From: Rheinheimera hassiensis
GTDB lineage: Bacteria > Pseudomonadota > Gammaproteobacteria > Enterobacterales > Alteromonadaceae
Length of the DNA: 64,000 nucleotides
Assembly (NCBI RefSeq): GCF_022436675.1
Contig: NZ_JAKUJZ010000004.1
Span: 1-64,000 of the forward strand
Direction: 5' to 3'
The position numbers and the translations under genes were made by a program. Within the stretch, counting starts at the first letter, position 1. Every line of letters starts with the position of its first letter. Of this stretch, positions 37,685 through 53,470 are shown in pieces. The notes beneath the pieces are model-generated. The model was not told the DNA's origin. It ran no database searches and was given only the letters and a program-made list of their open reading frames with translations.

Positions 37685-37761
37685 GCACCCGTAGCTCAGC
37701 TGGATAGAGCGCTGCCCTCCGGAGGCAGAGGTCCCGCGTTCGAATCGCGGCGGGTGCACCA
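37685..37761 (+). tRNA. argX: tRNA-Arg (anticodon CCG)
   Basis: A complete 77-nt cloverleaf: acceptor GCACCCG/CGGGTGC, D arm GCTC/GAGC, anticodon stem CTGCC/GGCAG with loop CTCCGGA (anticodon CCG, reads CGG), T arm with GTTCGAATC, discriminator A and encoded CCA. It remains intact although a transposon lies 40 bp downstream. The gene doubles as the target of the transposon's last CRISPR spacer. Confidence 0.97.
37719..37750 (+). other. Protospacer inside tRNA-Arg matched by the CAST's last spacer
   Basis: These 32 bases align without gaps to CRISPR spacer 53413-53444 at 23 positions. Mismatches fall at spacer positions 6, 10, 12, 16, 18, 19, 24, 30 and 32, so every multiple of six is mismatched. 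The flanking bases on the PAM side are CT, compatible with the relaxed CN PAM of I-F3 systems. The transposon end begins 52 bases downstream, at 37802. Confidence 0.85.
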
Positions 37762-37770
37762 AAACAAACA

Positions 37771-37792
37771 ACCGCCATTTCGGCGGTTTTTT
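37771..37792 (+). terminator. Intrinsic terminator of tRNA-Arg
   Basis: ACCGCC (771-776) pairs with GGCGGT (782-787) around ATTTC and is followed by TTTTT. The transposon inserted 9 bp beyond it, leaving the tRNA transcription unit whole. Confidence 0.88.
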
Positions 37793-37801
37793 GTTTTTGA
37801 C

Positions 37802-37850
37802 TGTCGTTTTAAGCATAAAGTGAACTTTTTTAGGCATAACTTGAACTTTT
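37802..37850 (+). repeat. CAST left end: terminal inverted repeat and TnsB-like sites
   Basis: The terminal 28 bp (37802-37829) match the right terminus in inverse orientation with one difference. Site 1, GCATAAAGTGAACTTTT (37813-37829), is repeated as GCATAACTTGAACTTTT (37834-37850), 21 bp further in. A weaker relative may lie near 37866. Multiple ~20-bp TnsB sites per end are characteristic of Tn7-like elements. Confidence 0.9.
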
Positions 37851-51541: not shown

Positions 51542-52541
51542 CTACCGCCGCTCACTGTCACCCAGCATTGGTGTTTTCACTTATATGAATAAGCAAGGAG
51601 AGGAAAGACCACTGCCGTTTAAAACAGTGAAAGTACTCGGTCAAAAAGAGGGGGTGGCGGAAGGATTTGATAACAAAATGATTCCCAAAGCCTCAGCTAC
51701 AGCGAAGAAACTTGGTGAGGGAAACCCTCACACTATTGAATATTGCCATGTACCTTACGACGCGAACCGAGTCTTCTGCAGGTTCTCGTTGACTGTTAAT
51801 GCAAACTCTATAGCGCCTGAGGTGTGCAATGACAATGAAGTTCTAGGAGCCATGTCTGAATTTGTGAAGTCCTATATAGCCGTGAAAGGCTATAGCTATC
51901 TCGCCGAGCGTTACCTGATACAGATCATTTCTGGTGCCTGGTTATGGCGAAATCAGTATTCACTTGGTACTACAATCAGGATCCGAACTCACAAAGGTCG
52001 AAATCTGGTAGCTGAAAATGTACAGCCGCATTCAGGGCAAAAAGGCTGGCAACAGAATTTAGCTGGCTGGGCAGAGTTGGTTGATGAGTTTAGTGAAGCG
52101 CTAATTCACCCGGGCAAATTTTTACTTTGCGAGGTTGAAGCTGAGATTATCCCAATAACCTGCCAGGAGATATACCCCAGTCAGGCATTTAGTGATCGAG
52201 ACAGCGAAGATATTGCCGGGCGGGTATTCCAAAAAACTATGGTAGATGGCACTGAGAGCCCAATTTTAGGTGCCTATAAAATTGGTGCGGCAATCGCTCA
52301 GGTTGACGATTGGTTTGATGACGTTGTTGAGCCATTACGAGTGGGTCAATACGGGGTAGATAAAAAGATAAGTGCAGCATTGCGCACACCTGAAAATGGA
52401 TTGGATTTTTTCAGTACCCTTACGCAGGTTGAGCAACTGACCGACGAGATAAAGGCCAAAAAACAACCCAATAATAGAGCTCACTTTTTGGCAGCTAATC
52501 TGATCAAAGGTGGTTTATTTCAGAAAGGGGCAGCCAATTGA
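51519..52541 (+). CDS. cas7f: Cas7f (Csy3) backbone subunit
   Basis: 340 aa. FSYRRSLSPSIGVFTYMN is the Csy3 N-terminal signature, and the WRNQYSLGTTIRI region follows. Six copies coat the crRNA spacer and flip out every sixth base, which matters for the guide described here. It overlaps cas8f by 23 bp and cas6f by 4 bp. Confidence 0.94.
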   Translation: MKLPQRFSYRRSLSPSIGVFTYMNKQGEERPLPFKTVKVLGQKEGVAEGFDNKMIPKASATAKKLGEGNPHTIEYCHVPYDANRVFCRFSLTVNANSIAPEVCNDNEVLGAMSEFVKSYIAVKGYSYLAERYLIQIISGAWLWRNQYSLGTTIRIRTHKGRNLVAENVQPHSGQKGWQQNLAGWAELVDEFSEALIHPGKFLLCEVEAEIIPITCQEIYPSQAFSDRDSEDIAGRVFQKTMVDGTESPILGAYKIGAAIAQVDDWFDDVVEPLRVGQYGVDKKISAALRTPENGLDFFSTLTQVEQLTDEIKAKKQPNNRAHFLAANLIKGGLFQKGAAN

Positions 52542-53167
52542 GCAGGTACTTTTTCTATATTCGATATTTGCCTGAAGACGTAAACTGCGAGTTCCTGGCG
52601 GGTAAATGTATTCGCATTTTGCATGCCTATCAAACCAGATTTAACTTACGCAGTATTGGTGTGTCATTCCCGGATTGGGGGCAAAGCAGTATTGGTCGAA
52701 CTATTGCTTTTATATCTGAGTCGCCACAATCCTTAACTACCCTTAGTCAGCAAAATTATTTTGTCCGAATGTCTGAAGAGGGATATTTTCTAATCAGTGG
52801 TGTTCAGGTATTGCCTGGTGATCAGGAATATCAGGAGTTTATTTATTACCGTGAAAGACGGCTGGAAAAAGAATCCGCATCTGCTAAAAAAAGAGAGTTG
52901 AAACGTTTACAAGCGAGGGCTATTCAAGCCGGTGTTGACTATGCTCCTAAAACAAGTGGGCGTGGATGTGTTGAGATACCTTTTGCACATAGGCTATCCT
53001 TTGGTAGCTCTAGTGGAGCAGATTTCTTGCTTTTTATCGGCCGTTTGGAGTGCGAAAAAAAACAACTATCAGAATTCAGTAGCTACGGATTAGGAAATAG
53101 ACCTGAGTTTAAGGGGTCAGTGCCTTGTCTACGACCCTTAATTTGTGAGTGTGAGGTAACTATTTGA
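52538..53167 (+). CDS. cas6f: Cas6f (Csy4) crRNA-processing endonuclease
   Basis: 209 aa from TTG 52538 (overlaps the cas7 TGA; AAAGGGG is 7 nt upstream). MSRYFFYIRYLPED and the RGCVEIPFAHRLSFGS segment are Csy4-like. His29 in CIRILHAYQ is at the position of the catalytic His of Pseudomonas Csy4. It cuts 3' of the repeat hairpin and stays bound. The CRISPR array begins 97 bp downstream. Confidence 0.92.
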   Translation: MSRYFFYIRYLPEDVNCEFLAGKCIRILHAYQTRFNLRSIGVSFPDWGQSSIGRTIAFISESPQSLTTLSQQNYFVRMSEEGYFLISGVQVLPGDQEYQEFIYYRERRLEKESASAKKRELKRLQARAIQAGVDYAPKTSGRGCVEIPFAHRLSFGSSSGADFLLFIGRLECEKKQLSEFSSYGLGNRPEFKGSVPCLRPLICECEVTI

Positions 53168-53264
53168 TTTTAAAGCTTTAAAATAATAGCTATAAATTAT
53201 GGGTAGGCTAGCCATTATGGGTCTAATTTCTTGATTTCATTTATTTTATTAGGTGTTCTGCATA

Positions 53265-53470
53265 GTTATCCGCCGTGTAGGTGGCTTAGAAAAAAGGCCG
53301 CCCCAGAATTCCAGAAGACGAACAGTTATCCGCCGTGTAGGTGGCTTAGAAATTATGGCAAAACAGACTGTGTTTTACCACCAAGTTATCCGCCGCGTAG
53401 GTGGCTTAGAAACCGGAAGCAAAAGTCTCTGGTTCCAATCGAGAACTCCGCCGCATAGGTGGCTATTTAT
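53265..53470 (+). CRISPR. Minimal I-F3 CRISPR array, three typical repeats plus one diverged terminal repeat
   Basis: 28-bp repeats at 53265-53292, 53325-53352 and 53385-53412 begin GTTATC and end CTTAGAAA. Each has a 5-bp hairpin CCGCC/GGTGG with loop GTGTA (GCGTA in repeat 3). Spacers of 32 bp are 53293-53324, 53353-53384 and 53413-53444. The terminal repeat (hairpin CCGCC GCATA GGTGG, ~53443-53470) differs at both flanks and the loop. Spacer 3 matches tRNA-Arg; I recognise no source for spacers 1 and 2. No adaptation genes are present, so the array cannot grow by itself. Confidence 0.96.

Follow-up and report, generated by a model that had tools for sequence, protein, structure and literature searches.

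A type I-F3 CRISPR-associated transposon of Rheinheimera hassiensis whose last spacer very probably serves as a homing guide for tRNA-Arg(CCG)

The window analysed here, a 64-kb stretch of Rheinheimera hassiensis DNA, carries a type I-F3 CRISPR-associated transposon (CAST) of 24,479 bp (24.5 kb; 37802–62280), of which both the left and the right end could be located. Judging from sequence comparison, the last spacer of its CRISPR array and the diverged repeat behind it very probably form a dedicated homing guide for tRNA-Arg(CCG), with RNA-guided homing as the best explanation of where the element sits, and tRNA-Arg(CCG) would accordingly be a new, well supported attachment site for the known I-F3 mechanism. 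For the guide, we directly observed its match to the tRNA gene, the period-6 pattern of this match and the lack of any other site with up to 3 mismatches in each of three genomes; for the insertion, we observed the distance to the protospacer, the element ends, the target duplications and the unoccupied site. Guide and location recur in three elements. By analogy with characterised I-F3 CASTs, on which we rely for crRNA expression, complex assembly and transposition, the crRNA would be carried by a Cas8/5-Cas7-Cas6 complex with TniQ and would read the tRNA gene from the anticodon (the seed) to the T arm, beside the PAM CT. This guide complex would recruit TnsC and TnsAB, which would insert the element so that it starts 50–55 bp past the protospacer and leaves the tRNA intact.

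The element, its insertion site and its last spacer

The features of the element and its flanks, by position in the window, are the following.

37685–37761, plus strand: tRNA-Arg(CCG) gene, intact, the proposed attachment (homing) gene (ARAGORN)
37717–37718, plus strand: PAM CT, formed by the two loop bases that precede the anticodon (from the sequence)
37719–37750, plus strand: protospacer, anticodon through T arm (23/32; 23/27 outside sixth positions)
37771–37787, plus strand: putative tRNA terminator, hairpin ACCGCC..GGCGGT followed by a T run (read from the sequence)
37797–37801, plus strand: left copy of the 5-bp target duplication, TTGAC (right copy TTGAT)
37802–37850, plus strand: left end, TGTCG and two direct TnsB-site-like repeats (37807, 37828)
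37899–38531, plus strand: tnsA (PF08722, Pfam)
38524–40377, plus strand: tnsB (PF09299; best solved chain is Tn6677 TnsB, labelled I-F3a)
40358–41395, plus strand: tnsC (PF05621, Pfam)
42392–48013, minus strand: cargo, CBASS-like defence operon (JAB, E1-E2, cyclase, exonuclease, SAVED-HNH effector)
48429–49625, plus strand: tniQ, 398 aa (PF06527)
49619–51541, plus strand: cas8/cas5 fusion, 640 aa (PF09614 in the later half; placed in a tree of 31 Cas8/5)
51519–52541, plus strand: cas7 (csy3; PF09615, TIGR02566)
52538–53167, plus strand: cas6 (csy4; PF09618, TIGR02563)
53265–53412, plus strand: CRISPR array of three 28-nt repeats (53265, 53325, 53385) and two ordinary spacers (53293–53324, 53353–53384)
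53413–53444, plus strand: predicted homing guide spacer; length 32 nt, or 30 nt with its last base at 53442
53443–53470, plus strand: diverged (atypical) terminal repeat with the hairpin kept (66% identity to the reference repeat; fold −7.8 kcal/mol)
62174–62280, minus strand: right end, three TnsB-site-like repeats (inverted relative to the left copies) and terminal CGACA
62281–62285, plus strand: right copy of the target duplication, TTGAT

The element combines TnsA, TnsB, TnsC and TniQ of the Tn7-like type with a type I-F effector set in which a fused Cas8/5 accompanies Cas7 and Cas6, and the tns and cas reading frames are full length. Specifically, TniQ aligns over its full length with the TniQ chains of solved I-F3 complexes, and Cas8/5 has an NCBIfam Csy2 match below the cut-off only. 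Neither Cas1 nor Cas2/3 was found by Pfam among the 19 element ORFs scanned, the rest being mostly small or overlapping, and the effector genes are those of an I-F Cascade rather than the type V-K effector Cas12k. The element appears to group with the I-F3a branch (guaC/yciA), as indicated by Tn6677 as the best TnsB match and by its Cas8/5 clade (below), in a tree without a named I-F3b row.

The CBASS-like cargo operon (42392–48013) has both an exonuclease and a SAVED-HNH effector. About 8–10 kb from it lie an HTH/CapP-like pair and a HamC-like gene (55740–58008). The HTH protein (55740–56078), which adjoins the CapP-like peptidase and which we looked at as a candidate Xre regulator of the RtaC type, may be a cargo regulator. 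The 1260-aa protein adjoining the right end (58331–62113) gave no Pfam or PADLOC match.

The ends follow the TGT..ACA form and are bordered by a 5-bp target duplication of which four of the five bases are alike (TTGAC versus TTGAT); the right end at 62280 is absent from the preliminary description. Two sister species of the same genus (L086 and L087) have an unoccupied site, with GTTTTTGACACC at the position of the duplication and GTTTTTGACACCTTGCCCGATGAGA read across the insertion point, so that, with both ends and the duplication in hand, the pre-insertion site of the element is known. The hairpin at 37771–37787 is likely the terminator of the tRNA gene, retained between tRNA and element, and both tRNA-Arg(CCG) and this terminator-like hairpin are whole after the insertion.

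The attachment gene is the sole tRNA gene of the window. The protospacer begins with the anticodon CCG itself and continues via the anticodon stem and variable loop into the T arm. Realignment confirmed the preliminary description, which had placed spacer 53413–53444 against 37719–37750 in tRNA-Arg(CCG) without gaps and with 23 of 32 bases identical; the mismatches fall at positions 6, 10, 12, 16, 18, 19, 24, 30 and 32. Because class 1 effectors flip out each sixth guide position (PMC12774636, excerpts), the useful score is 23/27, and all five sixth positions (6, 12, 18, 24 and 30) are among the nine mismatches (hypergeometric P 0.0006). The runner-up in the window, on either strand and with the spacer itself set aside, reaches 18/27. 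At one fixed place the probability of such a match by chance is 3e-8 (for 23/32) or 8e-11 (for 23/27), and in 200,000 shuffles of the spacer at constant composition neither 23/32 nor 23/27 was attained at any of 12 offsets near the left end. When the element's own assembly (4.7 Mb, 78 contigs) was searched with the usable positions of bases 1–31, 26 in all, as the pattern, the spacer itself and this tRNA were the only sites with up to 3 mismatches.

The distance from the protospacer end to the left end is 51 bp, as previously noted, with TGTCG at 37802. For comparison, ends have been predicted for 352 of 523 CASTs, and nearly all of these fall 50–60 bp from the protospacer site (PMC8649781, excerpts); VpCAST prefers a CN PAM (PMC12774636, excerpts). 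The guide-repeat unit has a pitch of 58 bases versus 60 for the ordinary units, so the spacer may be 30 nt long. This 58-base pitch is common to the window, R. pacifica (G394) and a third element, G684 (both described below), the spacer or the next repeat being 2 nt short. A search of the plasmid collection with ordinary spacers 1 and 2 gave nothing at E 1, the guide pattern had 0 matches in viral contigs, and no TnsB was confirmed in viral contigs.

Related elements at the same tRNA gene

Relatives were sought with Cas8/5 and TnsB in samples of genomes. Cas8/5 matched in 34 of 394 genomes sampled from a larger group for the order (E 1e-3), in 17 of 395 likewise sampled for the family (1e-10) and in 2 of 22 from the genus of G684 (1e-20), these three samples overlapping; TnsB matched in 2 of 31 genomes of the genus (1e-100) and in 1 of 369 of the class (1e-120), the latter being the element's own genome. 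Eight plasmid records contained Cas8/5, each below 60% identity. The close clade consists of three elements: that of the window, that of Rheinheimera pacifica DSM 17616 (Cas8/5 91% identical), the one GTDB species genome with a close Cas8/5 relative, and that of G684 (63%), from another genus of the family, and the next relatives stand at ~36%. R. pacifica is counted once, as we took G394 and G561 to be the same genome. In the Cas8/5 tree of 31 chosen loci, which left out G743, G044, G098, partial hits and weak hits, the three elements are joined with a support of 100/100 and fall within a 100/100 clade of 11 that also holds the guaC-type element G370.

Repeated insertion of this clade beside tRNA-Arg, proposed as a check in the preliminary description, was borne out: all three members carry this type of guide and sit 50–55 bp past the protospacer, none of the three has the same spacer at an unrelated site, and none of the three genomes holds another site that fits at up to 3 mismatches, the R. 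pacifica and G684 genomes having been searched with the shared guide pattern. In R. pacifica, tnsA lies right behind tRNA-Arg(CCG), with a gap of 50 bp and a last spacer that matches at 24/27. In G684, the gap is 55 bp, the guide matches at 23/27, and the target duplication is perfect (5/5), with GGAGT flanking the TGT..ACA ends on both sides. As tRNA-Arg(CCG) adjoins its right end, G684 is inserted in the opposite orientation to the window's element and most simply represents an independent event. The R. pacifica insertion point is 1 base off that of the window, and the empty-site sequence fits it without mutation; the insertion, whose right end lies off its contig, may be independent of the window's, and the 1-bp offset could also be a deletion rather than a second insertion. 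All 15 sixth-position cells of the three guides are mismatched.

Within the window region 48362–53470, TniQ, Cas8/5 and Cas7 are 91–96% identical to those of R. pacifica. Cas6 is only 62% identical to that of R. pacifica versus 82% to that of G684, and the CRISPR repeat is also closer to that of G684. Cas6 and the repeat seem to have been swapped together in a mosaic history. The working guide of G684 is followed by a near-typical repeat and by decayed guide copies: an extra guide-like spacer (16/27; contig C23, locus L063, ~44498–44529) comes after the working guide and a more decayed copy (C23, 47088–47145) lies ~2.6 kb downstream. These copies are apparently fossils of a duplicated homing guide.

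We also compared the array regions of eight distant I-F3 elements with the sequence near their cas genes or left ends. The terminal guide matches a flanking gene in three of the eight (G370 23/27, G506 23/27 and G444 24/27), and none of the genes so matched is a tRNA gene. By the same method, the terminal guide of G370 has a gap of 51 bp and four of its five sixth positions mismatched, and its target encodes a 347-aa PF00478 protein that we take to be GMP reductase, guaC. As this guaC-type guide also scores 23/27, the score of the window's guide is that of a homing guide of a known kind. The G506 guide (L127) matches a 4HBT thioesterase gene at 23/27 and the G444 guide (L129) a yggX-like (PF04362) gene at 24/27, both elements belonging to the same family; these targets apparently lie outside the four usual attachment genes. 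The remaining five elements (G459, G452, G652, G071 and G049) gave nothing convincing (best 20–22; 24 for G071, from outside the array).

Guide history and alternative explanations

A CCGGAGG protospacer is present in 28 of the 30 genus loci read (31 genomes, the window's included), with PAM CT in 28/28. These 28 loci comprise five protospacer alleles that score 21 to 25 of 27 against the window's guide; the other two loci differ here. Sixteen of the 28 have G at position 19 with C at 29; in the three element hosts these bases are C and G, and all three guides read G and G. On a simple account, the guide would derive from a G19/C29 tRNA and would later have been adjusted to the host at 29, a position that has to pair, but not at 19. 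On a wider view, it is reasonably probable that tRNA-Arg(CCG) became the attachment site of a separate I-F3 lineage through the acquisition of a tRNA-derived guide; guide-directed tRNA homing would then be independent in I-F3 and V-K, and the guide would have been retuned only where pairing matters, with all sixth positions left mismatched.

In VpCAST, mismatches at positions 13–17 and 19–23 have minimal effect, and those at 7–11, 25–29 and 31–32 lower activity (PMC12774636, excerpts). The four usable mismatches of the window's guide are at 16 and 19, within the VpCAST-tolerant segments, at 10, in the second seed segment, and at 32, a position also mismatched in G684. The second seed segment, which VpCAST needs, contains one mismatch in each guide (position 10 in the window and in R. 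pacifica, 9 in G684), and the G684 guide has an extra mismatch at 26, inside the VpCAST-needed 25–29 segment. Such mismatches, one of them in the seed, would be expected if the guide had formerly homed and since decayed, its copies being inherited or recombined rather than actively homing, and the mosaic history and the decayed copies in G684 point the same way. Nevertheless, the three diverged guides retain 23–24 of 27 usable positions, like the guaC-type element, position 29, which lies in a VpCAST-needed segment, fits the host allele in 3/3 elements, and the tns and cas reading frames are of full length, so we consider decay very improbable.

Equally improbable in our estimate is selection of the tRNA by a TnsD-like protein, the route taken by I-B2 and I-D CASTs, in which case the likeness of the spacer would be a coincidence. 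In other CASTs, TnsD does target tRNA genes (PMC11406308, excerpts), and the genome does encode a second TniQ-family protein with a TnsD domain. That protein, however, belongs to a separate Tn7-type tnsABCDE set (contig C6 of G000, 2027–9708; L133) and, being part of its own set, is an unlikely partner of this element. Of the two TniQ matches genome-wide, only one, of the Cascade-bound type, lies inside the element, which thus holds no second TniQ/TnsD, and selection by TnsD would leave the conserved guides of three elements unexplained. A chance likeness beside an insertion made otherwise (an island next to a tRNA, or recombination) is the least probable reading: many elements do insert preferentially at tRNA 3′ ends and the raw identity is only 72%, but the fixed-place probability (8e-11) and the shuffles (0/200,000) speak against it, and so does the finding of three such elements, one of them inversely oriented and cleanly duplicated at its target.

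Comparison with known CASTs

Since ffs is an RNA gene too, homing to an RNA gene is as such not new. The preliminary description listed guaC, yciA, ffs and rsmJ as the characterised I-F3 sites; these are indeed the main four, with parE reached via TnsD (PMC11406308, excerpts), but they make up 94% of events (PMC12774636, excerpts), and a Shewanella survey adds cobO and others (PMC12452197, excerpts). The further suggestion that tRNA homing is a distinct solution stands in part: it would be new for I-F3 in the literature examined, whereas V-K elements are already directed to tRNA genes by guides (PMC11406308, excerpts). One review loosely speaks of delocalized crRNA as bringing both I-F and V-K CASTs ‘near tRNA or glmS genes’ (PMC11656645, excerpts). 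We recognised no description of I-F3 homing to tRNA-Arg among the matches listed, an earlier report being possible in attachment-site surveys (e.g. Petassi 2020), and found no literature joining Rheinheimera with a CRISPR-associated transposon.

As tRNA genes offer a highly conserved landing site, a guide directed at one of them could allow homing in distant hosts. The window's guide fits the tRNA-Arg(CCG) of E. coli at 24/27, its usable mismatches lying at 10, 29 and 32, which makes both the claim and the pairing rules testable in E. coli. If our reading is true, the three guides offer natural data on which guide positions must match.

The element resembles the I-F3 CASTs of guaC, yciA, ffs and rsmJ (Tn6677, VpCAST, Tn6900) in having TnsABC, TniQ, fused Cas8/5, Cas7 and Cas6, and likewise in its terminal guide with a diverged repeat, its insertion ~50 bp past the protospacer and its mismatched, flipped sixth positions. 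It differs from these in that the attachment gene is tRNA-Arg(CCG), the PAM is CT, and the guide lies inside the array at a 58-base pitch, the repeat behind it being the only diverged one. With the Tn7017-type I-F3 CAST (parE) it has the I-F Cascade in common, but that type homes via a second TniQ/TnsD (PMC11406308, excerpts) and here the element has one TniQ. Type I-B2 and I-D CASTs (tRNA-Val and tRNA-Leu) likewise use a tRNA attachment gene, yet there a TnsD protein and not a guide picks the site (PMC11406308, PMC10293859 and PMC12719977, excerpts). Type V-K CASTs share guide-RNA-directed homing to tRNA genes (PMC11406308, excerpts) and differ in their Cas12k effector, their short truncated guides and their separate branch of transposons, which is why the tRNA homing of I-F3 and V-K elements looks like convergence. 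If true, I-F3, V-K and TnsD-type elements have reached tRNA homing by different routes.
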